The notes under the pieces were generated by a model. That model had not been told where the DNA came from, did not search any database, and saw nothing but the letters and a program-made list of their open reading frames with translations. A DNA stretch of 64,000 nt from Bradyrhizobium jicamae (lineage in GTDB: Bacteria; Pseudomonadota; Alphaproteobacteria; Rhizobiales; Xanthobacteraceae): NCBI RefSeq assembly GCF_001440395.1, contig NZ_LLXZ01000080.1, forward strand, positions 1-64,000, given 5' to 3'. Below are positions 34,104 to 52,790 of the stretch, in pieces (the stretch's first letter is position 1; the number at the start of each line of letters is the position of its first letter). The position numbers and the translations under genes are program-made.

Positions 34104-36050
34104 TCAGATCGCAGCGCGCGAGCGCTCATGGGTTGCCGCCTTCAGCGCGCCGACGTCGACCGTGGACGTCATTTCCTCGATCGTTACCGGAAGCCGCCGC
34201 CGCCAGTTCGGATGCTCGTTGACGGTGCCGGGAATGTTGGGCTGGTCGACCACCCCGAGCAGATCCTCCAGCGATACCGCAAGCAGCCGCGATTTGGTTC
34301 GCGCCAGGAAATTCGCGACCGAATAGAGATCGTTGCGATCGATGGCGTGATGCCGCAGCACGTCGTCCAGCATGGCAAGCGCGTGCCAGCGTGCCTCGTC
34401 GCTCTCGCCGGGGTCGATCCCGAGCGAGCGTTTCAGCTTGAGATCGCCGAACGAGCGCCAGCCGGCATAAGTCGAAAGATCATGGGTGTTGAAGGTGACG
34501 AGCGCGTTGGTCAGATAATGATCGATGTTGCGGAACGATCCGTGGTCGTCGCGCTCGAACATCATCACGAGATATGACCAGATGCCCCAATCGGCGATCT
34601 GGTCGCGAAACCCTTCGGGCACGGTGCCGAGGTCTTCGCCGATCACGACGCAGCGCTGCGTCATGCTTTCCTGCGCGGTCACCGCCAGCAGCGCCTCGAA
34701 CGGCATCTGCACGTAGACGCCGTCGCGTGCGGTGAAGCCTTGCGGCACCAGATAGAGCCGCTTCAGGCCTAGAACATGATCGAGCCGGATCGCGCCGGCA
34801 TGCCGCATCGAGGCGCGCAGCATGTCGCGATACGGCGCAAAGGATTGCTGCTCGAGCCCGACCGCATTGAAGCCGGCGAGGCCCCAGCTCTGGCCGGCGG
34901 TGTTGAGCGGATCGGGCGGTGCCCCGACGCCGAGGTGGCGGGATATCGCAACCTGTTCGTTCCAGGCGTCGAACCCGTCGGCCTGCACGCCGACCGCGAC
35001 GTCGAGATAGAGCCCGACCTTCATGCCGAGCTTTTTGGCCAGATCGTTGGCCGCGCCGAGCTGCCGATCCGCGGTCCATTGCACGAACTCGACGAATCCA
35101 ATTTCGCCGGCATCCTCGCCCTGGCGCAAGGCGGCGCATCTGACATCGTCCGGCTGCCGCCATTCTTCCGGCCATTCCCACCACGGCTTGCCGAATTTGT
35201 GCCGGAGCACCTCGAAGCAGGCAAAGTGCGACAGCAAGGTGCCGCGCTCGGTGCGGAATTTGTCGAAATCCTGTTGGCGCCCCGGCTTGGGAGCGGACTT
35301 GAAAGCAGCAAAAGCGGCGCGAAGTGCGCGCCACTTCAATCCGGCGACGCCGACGTAATCGACGACATCGCCTGCCCGCAACGATGCCAGCGCATCGCGG
35401 ATTCCGGAATCGGGCTGAAATTCGGGAAGCTTTTCAACGTCGATATAAAGCGCGTTGAGAAATAGCCGGCTGTTCGGCGAATACGGGCTGCAATCGCCCG
35501 GGCGATCGTCGAACAACGCATGCAGCGGATTGAGACCGACGCCGTCGGCGCCGAGCTGATCGGCGAGTTCGATCAGGTTGGCGAGGTCGGTGAAGTCACC
35601 CATCCCCCAGTTGCGCGCCGAGCGGACGCTATAAAGCTGCACCGCGAGCAGCCAGCAACGGTCGAACTCGCCGCCAAACGCCCGTTCCGGCGCCGAAATC
35701 AGCGGCACATCCTCAGTCGTCGCGGCGTCGCTCACCTGCAGCCGGTAGATGCCGAGCGGCAGGTCCTTGGGCCAATCGATGGCGTGATCCGAGCTCTCGC
35801 CCTTGGCGATAACTCCTGATTCCGCAACGATTTTCCACGCCACCGGCAGCCTGGCTTTCGGGAGTTCGGTGCGCGACGGCCGCCCGGACCGGACCACCAC
35901 GGGGTGGCCGACCAGCGCTCCCGGCGCCTGCGGCGGCAGGGCATCCAGGATTATTTTGAGCGCGGCAGCGTCCGTCACACGGCGGTGACCCTGACCGTCC
36001 AGGAACTCGGTTTGAATCCCCAGGGCTTTGGCTTGAGCAAAAAGGTCCAT
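34104..36050 (-). CDS. malQ: 4-alpha-glucanotransferase (amylomaltase, GH77)
   Basis: A 648-residue enzyme that transfers alpha-1,4-glucan chains, producing glucose and longer maltodextrins. GH77 motifs are intact: GLNPLHALFDDRPGDCSPYS, PNSRLFLNALYIDVE, the nucleophile region AIRLDHVLGLKRLYLVPQG, the acid/base region VIGEDLGTVPEGFRDQ, and FNTHDLSTYAGW. The N-terminal domain of about 140 residues is the usual bacterial extension. The start at 36050 (MDLFAQAKALGIQTE) is set by homology; a longer frame reaches 36164 but would contain the promoter described below. It is divergent from treS. A perfect EcfG promoter faces it at 36129-36153. Confidence 0.92.
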   Translation of the reverse strand: MDLFAQAKALGIQTEFLDGQGHRRVTDAAALKIILDALPPQAPGALVGHPVVVRSGRPSRTELPKARLPVAWKIVAESGVIAKGESSDHAIDWPKDLPLGIYRLQVSDAATTEDVPLISAPERAFGGEFDRCWLLAVQLYSVRSARNWGMGDFTDLANLIELADQLGADGVGLNPLHALFDDRPGDCSPYSPNSRLFLNALYIDVEKLPEFQPDSGIRDALASLRAGDVVDYVGVAGLKWRALRAAFAAFKSAPKPGRQQDFDKFRTERGTLLSHFACFEVLRHKFGKPWWEWPEEWRQPDDVRCAALRQGEDAGEIGFVEFVQWTADRQLGAANDLAKKLGMKVGLYLDVAVGVQADGFDAWNEQVAISRHLGVGAPPDPLNTAGQSWGLAGFNAVGLEQQSFAPYRDMLRASMRHAGAIRLDHVLGLKRLYLVPQGFTARDGVYVQMPFEALLAVTAQESMTQRCVVIGEDLGTVPEGFRDQIADWGIWSYLVMMFERDDHGSFRNIDHYLTNALVTFNTHDLSTYAGWRSFGDLKLKRSLGIDPGESDEARWHALAMLDDVLRHHAIDRNDLYSVANFLARTKSRLLAVSLEDLLGVVDQPNIPGTVNEHPNWRRRLPVTIEEMTSTVDVGALKAATHERSRAAI

Positions 36051-36122
36051 TCGGCACGTACTTTGCACGCAAACATCAAACCGATGTCGCGAAATTGTCC
36101 AATTACGGGAAGGAGATAGACC

Positions 36123-39100
36123 GTGTCTAACGCTCGGACCCAGCAACGGTTCCGCGGGAACCAAAGCGAGCCGAGCGGCTTTCTATCTAAGTCCGGAACG
36201 TCTCCCTTTCTGAAAACGAAACGGGGACGTCATTTCCATGGCAATGGCATCACCGTGAACAAAAAAGCGCAAACCGCCGAAAGCTCTCATTCCGGCGTCT
36301 CTCTCCCTATCGATGGCGCCTATCCGCTGGATAAGGACGGCAACCTGGTGCTCGAAGCAAAGGAGATGCCAGCCGCCGCCGACCCCGTGGCTGACGAGCT
36401 CTGGTACAAGGATGCGATCATCTACCAGCTCCACGTCAAGGCCTTCGCCGACAGCAACAATGACGGCATCGGCGACTTTGCCGGACTGACCGAGAAACTG
36501 GGATACCTGCAGGATCTCGGCGTCACCACGCTGTGGCTGCTACCGTTCTACCCCTCGCCCGGCCGCGACGACGGCTACGACATCGCCGACTATGGCGACA
36601 TCAATCCCGATTTCGGAACGATGAAGGATTTCAAGCGCTTCATCCAGGAAGCCAAGAAACGCGGCCTAAGGGTCATCACCGAGCTCGTCATCAACCATAC
36701 CTCCGATCAGCACGACTGGTTCAAGCGCGCCCGCCGCAGCGACCCGAACTCCTCGGCCCGCAACTGGTATGTCTGGAGCGACACCGACCAGAAATATCTG
36801 GGCACGCGGATCATCTTCACCGATACCGAGAAATCGAACTGGACCTGGGACCCGGAAGCCGGCCAGTTCTACTGGCACCGCTTCTTCTCGCACCAGCCGG
36901 ATCTCAATTTCGACAACCCGCGCGTGGTCAGCGCGCTGGTGCAGGTGATGAAGCGCTGGCTCGATACGGGCGTCGACGGCTTCCGGCTCGACGCCATTCC
37001 CTATCTCTGCGAGCGCGACGGCACCAACAACGAGAACCTGCCGGAGACGCATACCATCATCAAGCGGCTGCGCGGCGAACTCGATGCCTATGCAAAAGGC
37101 AAGGTGCTGCTGGCCGAGGCCAATCAATGGCCGGAGGACGTGCAGGAATATTTCGGCCGCGGCGACGAATGCCACATGGCCTATCACTTCCCGCTGATGC
37201 CGCGCATCTACATGGCGATCGCGCAGGAAGACCGTTTTCCGATCACCGACATCCTGCGTCAGACGCCGGATATTCCAGGCAACTGCCAATGGGCGCTGTT
37301 CCTGCGCAACCATGACGAACTGACGCTGGAAATGGTCACCGACGTCGAGCGCGATTACCTGTGGTCGACCTACGCCAACGATCCCCGCGCCCGCATCAAT
37401 GTCGGCATCCGCCGGCGACTGGCGCCGCTGATGGACAACGACCGGCGCAAGATCGAGCTGATGAACTCGCTGCTGTTCTCATTCCCGGGCACGCCGATCA
37501 TCTATTACGGCGACGAGATCGGCATGGGCGACAATATCTATCTCGGCGACCGCAACGGCGTGCGCACGCCGATGCAATGGACGCCGGACCGCAATGGCGG
37601 CTTCTCGCGCGCCGACCCCGCGCGGCTCTATGCGCCGACCATCATGGACCCGGTCTATGGCTATGAATCGGTGAATGTCGAGGCGCAGTCGCGCAGCCTC
37701 TCCTCGCTGCTCTCCGCCACCAAGCGGCTGATCGCGGTCCGCAAGTCGACACTGGCCTTCGGCCGCGGCACCATGACGTTCATCCGGCCCGAGAACCGCG
37801 CAGTACTATGCTATGTGCGCCAGTACCAGGACCAGGTCATTCTCTGCGTCGCCAACCTGTCGCGGTCGGCGCAGGCGACCGAGCTGGATCTCGCCGCCTT
37901 CAAGGACCGTATCCCGCTGGAAATGCTCGGCCGCACGCGATTTCCGGCGATCGGTGATCTGCCCTACATGATCACGCTCGCGCCTTACGGCTTCTACTGG
38001 TTCGAGCTGCAGGAGCGTGACAAATCGGCGCCGGTGCCGCAGCGCGCGGTGCCCGAGTTCGAAACGCTGGTGGTGCCGCTCAACGCGACCTGGGTGTCGC
38101 TGGCGCGCGAACGCGGCGTGTTCGAGCGCGACGTGCTTCCGGGCCACCTGGCGCGCAGCCGCTGGTACCCGGAGCGGTCGGAGAAAGCGATCCGTCCGGC
38201 GCTGACCTCGGCAATACCGTTCTGCGATATCGGCGACAACCGGCCGTGGCTCGCCTTCTTCGAAACCACGGAACGCAACATTACGACGCGTTATGTGTTG
38301 CCGATGCAGATCGAATGGGTGCGCTTCGACCGCGAGCGCTACAATCCGCATGCGCTGGCCGCCGTCCGGCAAGGCGCCCGCGAGGGTACCTTGCTCGACG
38401 TCGCCACCGACCAGATCTTCATCTCGCTGTTCCTGCGCAACCTGCAGCAATCGCTGACGGTCGACGAGAGCGAACAGGGCCTGCAACTCGAATTCCGCCC
38501 CTCCAGCCGCTTCGGCGACAAGCCGATCCGGCAGCCCGAGCACATCCGCACCGTCGAGTCCGATCTGCCCCGCAGCACCGCCCTGGTGGACAACGACTAC
38601 GTCGTCAAGATCTACCGCACGCTTCAGGCCGGCCCCAATCCCGAGATCGAGATGGGGCGCTTCCTCACCGACGTCGCCAATTTTCCCAACACGCCGGCGT
38701 TGCTCGGCAGCGCCGAGCTGGTCGAGGGCAACGAAAAGAGCGCGATCGGCGTCGTTCACGCCTTCGTTGCCAATCAGGGTGACCTCTGGACCGTGAGTGC
38801 CGCATATCTCGATCGCTTCGTCGAGGAGCAGCGGCTGCTGGCGGAGAGCATTCACCCCGGCGAGCGCGAGGAAGAAATCCCCTATCTGCGCTACATCGCG
38901 CAAGCCGGACGGCGCGTCGCCGAATTGCATGTCGCGCTCGCCAGCAATAGCGAGCTGGCCGAATTCGCGCCGGAGCCGACCGGCCGCGACGACGTGCAGC
39001 GCTGGATCGACGATCTGGCGCTCTGCGCCGGACGCGTGTTCGATCTGCTCAGGCAACGGCGCGAAACGCTGAAGGATGCCGCCGACCGGGCGCTGGCCGA

Positions 39101-39643
39101 CCAGGTGCTGGCGTTGCAGCCGGCCCTGCGCGATCGCCTCGAAACGCTGCTGCCGCGCGAGTTCGACGCCGCCAACATCCGCTGCCATGGCGACCTCGAT
39201 CTCAGCCAGCTGCTGATCGTCAAGGACGACATCTTCATCGTCGACTTCGAAGGCACGCCGCGGCGAACGATTGCCGAACGCCGGCGCAAGGTGCCCGCGG
39301 CGCGCGATGTCGCCAGCCTGATCCGCTCGATCGATTATTCGGCAACCGCCGCCCTTGAGCGCGCGCTCAAAGTGGCCCACGATGAGCATGGCAAGTTAGG
39401 CGCGGCGCTTGCCGAGTGGCGCGACCGGGCGACCGTCGCATTTTTCGCCGCCTACAGCGAAGCCATGACCGATCAACGGTTGTGGCCGAACGATCCCAGA
39501 ACCGCCGAGCGCATACTTAACTTCTTCCTGCTCGAGAAGGCTTTGAACGAAATCGAACACGAGTTGTTGTATCGACCGGACTGGCTACGCATGCCCCTGA
39601 CCGGAATCATCCGAACGTTGTCGCAACCACCATTCGAGGCCGC

Positions 39644-39647
<4 letters not shown>
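36123..39647 (+). CDS. treS: Trehalose synthase fused to maltokinase (TreS-Mak)
   Basis: A protein of up to 1174 residues. The GH13 trehalose synthase part starts at [20 protein letters not shown] and has the catalytic blocks [11 protein letters not shown] (nucleophile), [13 protein letters not shown] (acid/base) and [12 protein letters not shown]. From about residue 680 a maltokinase domain follows, with [25 protein letters not shown] and [10 protein letters not shown] as kinase loops. It interconverts maltose and trehalose and makes maltose-1-phosphate. Start: AAGGAG lies 7 bases before the GTG at 36123, but the first 44 residues have low GC3 and no family similarity. A GTG at 36255 ([10 protein letters not shown]) would give 1130 residues. 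It overlaps glgB by 4 bases. Confidence 0.9.
36129..36153 (-). promoter_or_regulatory. EcfG promoter for malQ
   Basis: On the minus strand: GGAAC (36153-36149), 16 bases, CGTT (36132-36129), an exact consensus match. The start of transcription would be near 36122, giving a leader of about 72 nt. The box overlaps the first codons of treS if that gene starts at 36123. Confidence 0.6.
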
Positions 39648-48817: not shown

Positions 48818-48842
48818 GGAACTTAGGTGACTCCCGGTTGTT
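48818..48842 (+). promoter_or_regulatory. EcfG-like promoter for the DUF3309 gene
   Basis: GGAAC (48818-48822), 16 bases, TGTT (48839-48842): one mismatch in the -10 relative to CGTT. It lies 55 bases before the DUF3309 start codon, at a normal promoter distance. Confidence 0.45.
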
Positions 48843-49078: not shown

Positions 49079-49164
49079 CAGGGTGGGCAAAGGCGCGAAA
49101 GCGCCGTGCCCACCTTTCTTGTTGCACGGACAATGGTGGGCACGCTTCGCTTTGCCCACCCTAT
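49079..49164. repeat. Palindromic intergenic repeat, family A copy 3
   Basis: Left arm gcagggtgggcaaag... (from 49079) and right arm ggtgggcacgcttcgctttg...ccctat (49135-49164) match copies 1 and 2. It lies between convergent DUF3309 and ligD genes. The TAG stop of ligD (49163-49161) is formed by the outer end of the right arm. Confidence 0.85.
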
Positions 49165-51806
49165 ATCGAGGTCAGTTTCTTCATCGCGGCCTTGATCGAA
49201 GCGGCCGCGTCATCATACCCCTCCCACGCTTTCGTCTTGCTCAATAACCCCGGCACGGTGCGCACCGTATACTTCTTCGGGTCGAGATCGCCGCGCACCT
49301 GCGTCCACGTCAGCGGCATCGAGACGGTAGCGCCGTCGCGCGCACGCGGCGACAGCACGGCAACCGCGGTCGACATCCGATCGTTGCGCAGATAGTCGAG
49401 GAAGATCTTTCCCTTGCGAAGCTTCTTCGACATGTTGAGCAGATAGCGCTCGGGATCATCGTTCGCCATCCACTGGCAGATGCCTTGTGCGAAAGCCTTG
49501 GCCTCCTTCCACGTCACCCTATCCCTGGCGCCATGGAGCAGCGGCGTCACCACGTGCAACCCCTTGCCGCCGGTAGTCTTGCAGAAACTTTCGAGGCCGA
49601 CCGCGGTCAGCCGCTGGCGCATATCTTTCGCCGCTTCGATGACATCGGAAAATTCGACATTGGGCGCCGGATCGAGATCGAACACCAGCCGACCCGGCAC
49701 ATCGGGTTCTCCGGGCGCGCAATTCCAGGGATGCAGCTCCAGCCCGCCGAGCTGCGCCACCGCGGCCAGTCCTTCGATCCGGTCGATCTGCAGATAGGGT
49801 TTGCGATCGCCAGAGACCTTCACCAGCTCAAGGAGCTTCGATCCGCCCGGCATGGCGTGACGCTGAAAGAAAGTCTCGCCCTTGATACCGTCGGGCGCGC
49901 GCAGCACCGAGCATGGCCGTCCCCTGATATGGCCGATCATCCATTCGCCGACCGCCTCGAAATACTGCGCGAGGTCGAGCTTGGTGACGGACTCGCCGCC
50001 GCCGCCGTCAGGCCACAGCGCCTTGTCGGGCTTGGAAATCGCAACGCCCAGCACCTCGGAAGATTTGGCCGACGATTTCATCGATCGCGCCACGGGTGTT
50101 ACAACCTGGGTCATGGCAGGCCTCTCCGCGCGTACTTCCTTCGCCGGCTTGTCCTGGCGCAGGCCCTTGAACGCGGCCTGCCGGATGTTGCCGCCATCGG
50201 TCCAGCCGGCGAACTCGACCTCGGCAATCAGTTCGGGCTTCAGCCAGTGCACATCCCGTGTCTTCTTGGGCGCATCCTTGCCGCCGAACGGGCTCTTGTC
50301 CGATGCCGCCGCCTTCAGCGCCGGCATGATGCGGCGGACCGTATCCTGGCCGAAGCCGGTACCGACCATACCGACAAAGACCAGATGGTTGCCGCGATAG
50401 ACGCCGGCCATCAGCGAACGGAATTTACCGTTGGTCGTCTTCCAGCCGCCGAGCACGACCTCCTGCCCGCCGCGGATCTTTGCCTTGGTCCAGCTCTCGG
50501 AACGTCCCGAACGATACGGCGCAGCCAGCTTCTTGGAGACGATACCTTCGAGCGATAGTTTCCTGGCCGACTCCAGCACGGTATCGCCGCGCTCCTCGAA
50601 ATGATCGACGTAACGGATCAGTCTGTCCTTTCCGTTTCGCCGCTCCTCCAGCAGCCGTTTCAACCGTTCCTTGCGCTCACGCAGCGGCAACTGACGCAAA
50701 TCCTCACCACTGGCAAACAGCAGATCGAAGGCAAAGAAGATCAGGTCGCCGGTCTTGTTGTCTGCAATCGCGGCCTGCAGGGCGGAAAAACTCGGCACGC
50801 CGCTGTGGTCGAGCGCGACGATCTCGCCGTCGATCAGTGCATCGGGCAACGCCCTGGCCGCTCGCGTAATGGCGCCGAACTTCTCGGCCCAATCCAGCCC
50901 TTTCCGGGTCAGCAACGCGGCATCACCATCCTCGATCCGCAATTGTACGCGGTAGCCATCGAACTTGACTTCATGGCACCAGCCGTCCGCGTTCGGCGGC
51001 TGCTCGACCGAGGCGCAGAGTTGCGGCGCGACGAAATCCGGCATCGCGGAAACTTTCTTCGGTTTTGCGACCTGCGCCGGTGCGCGGGACCTTGTTTCGG
51101 CACTGGATCGCAAAGCCGCCGTTCTGCCCCTGGCACGCGCCTCGGCCGCATCGCCACGGTTCGAGTGCCAGACCGCATCGGCTTTGGTCTTGCCCTTGGC
51201 CAGCATGAACGGCTTTGGCGCCTTGCCCTTGCCTTCGGCAATCTGCGCCATCGATCGCCCCGAAGCGACGGAACGATCCTCTTCCAGGATGTCGTTGGCC
51301 GTGCCTTCGCGTGCGTATTCGTCCCGGTGCTTGATCAGGAGCCAGTTGGTGCGCTTGCCGCCGTAGCGGTCGCCCTTCATTCGCACCAGCACCCAGCTTC
51401 CGTGCAGCTTGTCGCCTTGCAGCGTGAATTTCAGATCACCCTTCTTGAAGCCGCGATCGGGATCCTCGGATTCCCAATAACCGCGGTCCCATAGCTGCAC
51501 GGTGCCGCCGCCATATTCACTGTCTGGAATGGTGCCTTCGAAGTCGCCGTAATCGAGCGGATGATCCTCGACCTCCACGGCAAGCCGCTTGTCGTGCGGA
51601 TCGAGCGAGGGGCCGCGCGTCACCGCCCAGGACTTGAAGACGCCATCGAACTCCAGCCGCAGGTCGTAATGCAGTCTGGTCGCGTCGTGCTTCTGGATCA
51701 CAAAACGTCGATGTTTGTCGGGCGCGACCTTGACGTCGCCGGAGGGCTCCGCCGTTTTGCCGAAATCGCGCTTCTTGCGGTACGTGCTGAGTTTCTTCAA
51801 CGCCAC
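49161..51806 (-). CDS. ligD: ATP-dependent DNA ligase D (NHEJ)
   Basis: An 881-residue three-domain enzyme of bacterial non-homologous end joining, in the order 3'-phosphoesterase, ligase, polymerase. The phosphoesterase domain (about 25-200) has [20 protein letters not shown] and [20 protein letters not shown]. The ligase domain has the adenylation motif [10 protein letters not shown] with Lys281 and DGEIVALD. The primase-polymerase domain (from about 600) has [18 protein letters not shown] and [14 protein letters not shown]. The start is likely the GTG at 51806, with GAGG 7 bases upstream; a TTG at 51812 is too close to that site. It is divergent from ku, with a shared promoter region. The last codon and stop lie in a repeat arm. 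Confidence 0.94.
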
Positions 51807-51844
51807 GGCCAAACCTCGACCATCAGGACCGCCCCTGCCACGCA

Positions 51845-51869
51845 GGAACGAAAACCCATACTAGCCGTT
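51845..51869 (+). promoter_or_regulatory. EcfG promoter for ku
   Basis: GGAAC (51845-51849), 16 bases, CGTT (51866-51869): an exact match. Transcription would start about 30 bases before the ku ATG, and GGAG (51896-51899) is well placed as ribosome site. Control of NHEJ genes by this sigma factor is known in Sinorhizobium meliloti. Confidence 0.7.
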
Positions 51870-51877
51870 GAAGTTCC
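51853..51877 (-). promoter_or_regulatory. EcfG-like promoter for ligD
   Basis: On the minus strand: GGAAC (51877-51873), 16 bases, GGTT (51856-51853): one mismatch in the -10. It interleaves with the ku promoter on the other strand; the two boxes form an imperfect palindrome. The leader to the ligD GTG would be about 40 nt. Confidence 0.55.
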
Positions 51878-51905: not shown

Positions 51906-52790
51906 ATGGCCCCCCGTGCCTACTGGAAAGGCTCGCTGAAACTATCGTTGGTGTCGTGCCCTGTCGTTCTGTACCCGGCCTCGACATCGGTCGAGAAAAC
52001 CCGCTTTCACATGATCAACAAGGAGACCGGCAACCGGCTGAAACAGCAGATGATCGATGCCGAGACTGGCGATGTCGTCGAGAGCGACCAGAAGGGCCGC
52101 GGCTATGAGCTGAAGAAAGGCCGCTATGTCGAGATCGAAAAGGACGAACTCGAGGCCGTCCAGATCGAGAGCAATCACACCATCGAGATCGACAGTTTTG
52201 TGCCACGGGACGAGATCGACAAGCGCTATTACAACCACCCCTACTATCTCGCACCCGACGGCAAGGTTGCGGTGGACGCCTTCGCGGTGATCCGCGACGC
52301 CATGAAGGATGAAGACCGGGTGGCGCTGGCGCGCATCGTGCTGACCAACCGCGAGCACGTCATAGCAATCGAGCCGCTCGGCAAGGGACTGCTCGGCACC
52401 ACGCTGCGCTATCCCTACGAGCTGCGCGACGAGGACGCCTACTTCGAGGACATCAAGACCCCGAAGATCACCAAGGACATGGTCGAACTCGCGGGCCACA
52501 TCCTGCAGACCAAGGCCGCGCATTTCGATCCTTCGAAATTCAAGGACGAATATGAGGACGCGCTGAAGGCGCTGGTGCGGCGCAAGGCTTCCGGCAAGAC
52601 AGTCAAGCTACCCGAGCCCGAGGAAAAGCCCGACAACGTCGTTAACCTGATGGATGCGCTCAAGGCGAGCCTGAAGGGCAAGGCGGCGGCGAAACGGCGC
52701 GGGCATGGCTCGACCGCGCGGCGAGCGCCCGCGCGACGCACCGCGAAGAAGGCGCACCGATCCGCGGCCCGGCACCGCAAGGCCAGCTAG
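51906..52790 (+). CDS. ku: Ku homodimer protein (NHEJ)
   Basis: A 294-residue bacterial Ku, which rings DNA ends and recruits LigD. It begins MAPRAYWKGSLKLSLVSCPV, the family signature, with KTRFHMINKETGNRLKQQMI, EIDSFVPRDEIDKRYYNHPY and YLAPDGKVAVDAFAVIRDAM. The C-terminal tail (from about residue 250) is very Lys/Arg/Ala-rich (KGKAAAKRRGHGSTARRAPA), like the DNA-binding basic tails of other bacterial Ku proteins. The ATG at 51906 has GGAG 6 bases upstream; longer upstream reading is a shadow of ligD. A second repeat family lies 10 bases after the stop. Confidence 0.95.
   Translation: MAPRAYWKGSLKLSLVSCPVVLYPASTSVEKTRFHMINKETGNRLKQQMIDAETGDVVESDQKGRGYELKKGRYVEIEKDELEAVQIESNHTIEIDSFVPRDEIDKRYYNHPYYLAPDGKVAVDAFAVIRDAMKDEDRVALARIVLTNREHVIAIEPLGKGLLGTTLRYPYELRDEDAYFEDIKTPKITKDMVELAGHILQTKAAHFDPSKFKDEYEDALKALVRRKASGKTVKLPEPEEKPDNVVNLMDALKASLKGKAAAKRRGHGSTARRAPARRTAKKAHRSAARHRKAS

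Follow-up and report, generated by a model that had tools for sequence, protein, structure and literature searches.

Under stress, PhyR frees the sigma factor EcfG from NepR. In Sinorhizobium meliloti the NHEJ genes are RpoE2-dependent, which places ku and ligD of a rhizobium under a stress sigma factor, and the control proposed here for the same two genes is of that kind. Symmetry-driven bidirectional bacterial promoters, with starts on both strands, were reportedly described by Warman et al. in 2021; those are housekeeping promoters, whereas the locus described here appears to combine two full ECF-type promoters for two genes of one pathway.

Two described systems have the same genes, the same sigma family, and a GGAAC -35 box, as far as the available passages of their sources go. 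In Sphingopyxis granuli TFA, ku-ligD is listed in the EcfG regulon, and ku expression is given as 0.16 in the ecfG2 and double mutants and 1.34 in the ecfG1 mutant (PMC7083833, in part). The same passages describe a flexible EcfG -10 box of up to 14 variants, with GGTT among the commonest; GGTT also served as a template in vitro, and transcription dropped when CGTT was replaced by CATT or TGTT. In Sphingomonas melonis Fr1, ku is EcfG-dependent, but its motif in the passages available is a single GGAAC-N16-AATT box (PMC6599016) rather than an interleaved pair, and the passages available for either organism contain no interleaved two-way promoter. At hrpL-hrpJ of Pseudomonas syringae, an ECF-sigma promoter occludes its divergent neighbor in a shared intergenic region (PMC5263251, in part); there, however, the neighboring promoter is of the sigma-54 type and becomes repressed, whereas both promoters of the present locus apparently use the same sigma factor. 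EcfG regulon membership is already known, and the conserved interleaved layout is what appears to be new. Titles and abstract openings, with subscription papers thinly covered, describe no interleaved EcfG promoters, which is weak evidence of novelty, and the main text of PMC4842269 contains neither GGAAC nor "DNA repair".

In this study, we examine a 33-base element between ku and ligD at 51845-51877 of the window, the whole stretch of 64,000 nucleotides that was analyzed. The element reads GGAAC-GAA-AACC-N9-CGTT-GAA-GTTCC, with the -35 boxes outermost, the -10 boxes inward, and a 16-base spacer in both directions (Table 1). We read it as two divergent, interleaved EcfG promoters that would jointly induce ku and ligD under stress, and we give this reading a probability of roughly 0.85. 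The original prediction had placed one promoter on the plus strand, aimed at ku, and another on the minus strand, aimed at ligD, with cores overlapping by 17 bases. The letters bear out both promoters and the overlap, which spans 51853-51869. The ku direction has an exact EcfG-type promoter, GGAAC with CGTT at N16, and the ligD direction has GGAAC with GGTT at N16. The prediction had counted GGTT as one mismatch, which is correct as to the letters, but GGTT is an accepted natural variant of the EcfG -10 box in the passages available of PMC7083833. The boxes overlap on both strands, as in the layout of a bidirectional promoter. Thirty-six nucleotides separate the ku -10 box from the ATG at 51906, and 46 or 40 nucleotides separate the ligD -10 box from a start at GTG 51806 or TTG 51812.

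Table 1. Coordinates of the promoter boxes and genes in the window, with the basis or a remark for each.
Feature	Coordinates	Strand	Basis or remark
ku promoter -35 box, GGAAC	51845..51849	+	sequence reading
AA between ku -35 and ligD -10	51851..51852		conserved, outside both classical boxes
ligD promoter -10 box, GGTT (plus strand AACC), spacer 16	51853..51856	-	sequence reading
Central 9 bp separating the two -10 boxes	51857..51865		mostly variable
ku promoter -10 box, CGTT, spacer 16	51866..51869	+	sequence reading
ligD promoter -35 box, GGAAC (plus strand GTTCC)	51873..51877	-	sequence reading
ku, 294 aa	51906..52790	+	NCBIfam TIGR02772, 3.1e-87
ligD, 881 aa (GTG 51806) or 883 aa (TTG 51812)	49161..51812	-	TIGR02776 1.9e-220, PRK05972
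malQ-like ORF	34104-36164	-	faced by GGAAC-N16-CGTT; named by eye
treS-like ORF	36123-39647	+	faced by GGAAC-N16-GCTT; named by eye

ECF promoters start transcription 6-8 nt after the -10 box. Under stress, PhyR would release EcfG from NepR, and EcfG-RNA polymerase would bind the element in either orientation, one leading to a ku start near 51876 and the other to a ligD start near 51846. As judged from this geometry, simultaneous occupancy should be impossible, because each predicted start falls within the opposite -35 box or next to it. The element would therefore hold one polymerase at a time, with initiation alternating between ku and ligD, and one sigma factor would induce both genes together. 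In this genome the ku promoter is probably the stronger, since it has CGTT where ligD has GGTT, as judged from the -10 data in the available part of PMC7083833. The ku -10 box is itself GGTT in 71 of the 139 elements profiled below, so that the ku:ligD ratio may vary from one species to another. EcfG, NepR, and PhyR are all encoded together in the genome, with a PF18557 match for NepR and adjoining ECF sigma and PhyR ORFs that have Pfam matches. Its nepR-phyR intergenic region has no overlapping promoter pair; it has one GGAAC-N15-18-NNTT match, ending in CATT, on the minus strand. We infer the use of EcfG and both start sites in Bradyrhizobium from sequence. If the reading is true, the general stress response of Bradyrhizobium and its family would activate double-strand-break repair by NHEJ from a single shared site.

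The interleaved site occurs once in the 8,733,502-base genome, against 0.0012 expected from base composition, and the reversed-pattern control gave no match in the same genome. Single sites alone are not unusual: the window holds four GGAAC-N16/17-SGTT sites, two of them in this element, where 1.67 would be expected, and 6 of 100 shuffles of the window reached four. Across 31 whole genomes, GGAAC-N16/17-GGTT and -CGTT were no more frequent than the reversed pattern; the coding background of this control differs, which makes the comparison uninformative, but it lends the reading no support. A chance origin of the interleaved element was rejected, given about 0.001 sites expected in the genome, no control matches, and retention across the genus. 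In a scan of named genomes, the matches listed contain at least 118 stretches with the pattern, at least 68 of them between ku and ligD and at least one (L273) with ligD only; 49 of these 118 had no ku or ligD nearby and came from many phyla, as expected by chance.

The prediction was to count as refuted if close relatives had lost the boxes, but most keep them. Of 195 genomes in the genus, 165 have the exact layout (GGAAC-N3-AAC-N11-GTT-N3-GTTCC), as do 159 of the 183 of good quality, while the reversed pattern matched none of the 195. The neighborhood was inspected for 32 of the 165 sites. Thirty adjoin ku and ligD, among them that of G024, where ku matches over its first 46 residues only. 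The other two genomes (G003 and G183; L350 and L351) have the whole element beside ligD and no ku within 1.5 kb of its other side. In all three, the ku-facing boxes are intact although ku was not found beside them or matched only in part. The elements of G003 and G183 are identical in sequence, and the absence of ku from both may reflect one recent loss. A recent loss would explain the intact boxes, yet it does not thereby demonstrate that the boxes depend on ku, and our confidence in the two-promoter reading is slightly lowered because two genomes without ku keep its boxes.

The 30 genomes without the exact pattern comprise 15 without this ku, eight altered by a small indel or in a single box (G011, G012, G014, G040, G052, G085, G113, and G167), six in which ku and ligD lie apart (G064, G145, G160, G166, G175, and G178), and one with a diverged ku (G168), which is 65% identical and has an internal stop. 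In 14 of the 15 genomes without this ku, no full-length Ku match exceeds 55% identity, and the remaining one has no match. Several of the 15 are incomplete, and G101 retains a 64-residue fragment of 71% identity. An order-wide search of 397 genomes, allowing the centre length to vary by one base, found the element in 16: 13 of this genus, two of other genera in the family, and one from outside it (G298), which has no ku in its 2.5-kb locus. Carriers flanked by ku and ligD include, among the matches listed, Bradyrhizobium, Rhodopseudomonas, Afipia, and Tardiphaga. A contig labeled Mucilaginibacter (L207, a MAG) was also counted with ku and ligD around the element and is probably mis-binned.

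Natural variants provide a further comparison. One-base indels usually leave a spacer of 16 or 17 bases for each promoter: one more base in the right arm (G052, G167, and G040) gives N16 for ku and N17 for ligD, one more in the centre (G514) gives N17 in both directions, and the ligD promoter of G085 and G113 is left with N17-GGTT. Exceptions include G012, where ligD is left with N15-GGTT or N16-GTTT, and G014, where the ku -35 box is CGAAC. Since two promoters need only N16-17 each, and a rigid palindrome should resist changes in spacing, these variants favor two promoters. G084 carries two copies of the spacer, separated by about 1 kb. The copy on the ligD side keeps the ligD promoter but has lost the ku -35 box, and its ku -10 box reads CGCT; the copy on the ku side keeps the ku promoter, with AGTT as the ligD -10 box. 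This division of labor is the most telling single case, though it is one genome. Together with the layout in 165 of 195 genomes, the variants support the suggestion that one sigma factor could fire both ways. In several genomes (L173-L178), ku and ligD are separated by a few hundred bases of additional DNA that is similar among them; Rfam gave no match for that of L173 and L178.

Two accounts of the interleaving share this two-promoter core. In the first, to which we give slightly less than an even chance, both promoters are real and the interleaving is a selectively neutral relic of an ancestral spacer that was short, and in which most indels would harm one promoter, so that mutual exclusion has no regulatory benefit. 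In the five genomes read with ku and ligD 374-822 bp apart (the ligD side was read in all of the six with separated genes but G175), each gene indeed retains its own GGAAC-N16/17-NGTT: GGAAC-N17-CGTT near the ku start, with no adjoining reverse -35 box, and GGAAC-N16-NGTT on the ligD side, N being T, C, T, A, or T in the five. Back-to-back EcfG-like pairs elsewhere also indicate that interleaving is unnecessary for co-control, but lack of room alone is insufficient as a cause, because the interleaving is retained where ku and ligD are 433 bp apart, in G695, and where the distance has grown to 123-152 bp, in further genera of the family. The EcfG promoter is near-symmetric, AAC in the -35 box facing GTT in the -10 box, and thus few changes may suffice to create a promoter on the opposite strand. 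In the second account, which we consider less likely than not, the element, common to several genera of the family, is a symmetric promoter dedicated to two-way firing with an alternative sigma factor: EcfG-RNA polymerase would alternate between ku and ligD, both NHEJ partners would be induced together, the two -10 boxes would set their ratio, and the interleaving itself would be selected. The N16/N17 shifts, the duplicated spacer, the separated-gene clade, and the genomes that lost ku provide ready comparisons for asking if the Ku:LigD ratio is set by the interleaving, and the locus is a small natural system in which to study the sharing of overlapping promoters of one ECF sigma factor among polymerases.

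Loci found by protein rather than by pattern bear on whether both promoters work. Fifty-seven distinct ku upstream regions were taken from the best matches of two Ku protein searches, a less biased set than the pattern-selected one. GGAAC-N16/17-NNTT points at ku in all 57, and the interleaved reverse -35 box is present in 49 of the 50 regions that have ligD within 200 bp. It is present in three of the remaining seven (L052, duplicated spacer; L055, contig end; L094, extra DNA) and absent from four (L056, contig end; L100, L101, and L102, no ligD in the locus); Fisher's test gives p = 0.0004 for these loci, which is not a true probability because the sequences are related. It is improbable, then, that the ku promoter alone is functional, with ligD read from another promoter and its boxes here a by-product of EcfG near-symmetry: besides being near-constant in short spacers with ligD, the reverse -35 box is missing from the three loci without ligD, the ligD-side copy of G084 retains the ligD boxes and not those of ku, and ligD owns a separate promoter-like pair in the five genomes with separated genes. 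The points on the other side are the non-consensus GGTT of the ligD -10 box and a damaged ligD box in a few genomes, namely G012, G640 (-35 box GGAGC, with ligD only 134 bp away), and L098 and L099 (-10 box ACTT); the ligD -35 box of G011 is likewise damaged, to GGAGT.

A sequence profile was built from 139 distinct elements that were chosen by the pattern itself, and only positions outside the pattern are informative; identical upstream regions were counted once, and L127-L142 (short loci with a more distant ku) and loci with less than 150 bp upstream were left out. The ku -10 box is CGTT in 63 elements, GGTT in 71, TGTT in four, and AGTT in one, and the ligD -10 box is GGTT in 135 of the 139. 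Positions 51851 and 51852, which the pattern leaves free, are A in 137 and 138 of the 139, and element positions 14-20 carry 0.01-0.48 bits. That the palindrome is instead an operator for a dimeric transcription factor is very unlikely, for although its inverted symmetry, the conserved AA outside the classical boxes, and the persistence of the whole element in two genomes without ku would suit an operator, the element splits into single GGAAC-N16/17-NGTT units where the genes are apart, arm and centre lengths differ by one base among genomes, ku elsewhere in the order has a single unit and no palindrome, and the half-sites neither hold a fixed spacing nor stay paired.

Beyond the family, 27 ku starts were read at 24 loci from an order-wide ku search, one locus being from the same family. 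GGAAC-N15-18-NNTT lies within 220 bp of 21 of the 27 starts, with CGTT in 14 of these, and none of the 27 has an interleaved pair; L328 is a divergent ku-ku pair with back-to-back boxes. Putative EcfG-type boxes before ku are widespread, and interleaving is seen in this family only. Three more ku genes occur in the genome studied here (G000:C62:5340-6176, C139:29287-30120, and C102:86877-87737), with products 50-54% identical to this Ku; none has GGAAC-N15-18-NGTT in the 200 bp before its start. In L124, one of the three, GGAAC-N16-TCTT is present, which also occurs in several relatives, and this motif, at -53 to -61, is common to paralogous Bradyrhizobium ku genes (L146, L152, L155, L157, L163, L168, L169, and L170). 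Among 707 records of Ku relatives on plasmids, none was above 80% identity.

The window holds a second divergent EcfG-like pair at 36129-36181, 15.7 kb from the ku-ligD element and facing the malQ-like and treS-like ORFs. Like the element, it consists of divergent EcfG-like boxes between two stress-related genes, but it is back-to-back, with the -35 boxes 3 bp apart and promoter cores that do not overlap. This back-to-back pattern was found in 40 of 98 genus genomes, with a control match in three; of 20 pattern loci read, 13 are at malQ and seven elsewhere. In Bradyrhizobium diazoefficiens, trehalose production is stated to be under general-stress control (PMC6599016, in part), and the region here has the look of a stress island in which trehalose metabolism and NHEJ are brought together. 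At 48818-48842, GGAAC-N16-TGTT stands about 55 bp upstream of a gene for a 54-aa DUF3309 protein (ATG 48898), possibly a third EcfG target in the window. Another divergent locus of some Bradyrhizobium (L337, L342, L345, L347, and L349), with no malQ, treS, ku, or ligD nearby, has back-to-back GGAAC-N16-NGTT boxes in both directions, and at L101 (G643), where ku occurs without ligD in the locus, back-to-back GGAAC-N16-CGTT points away from ku.
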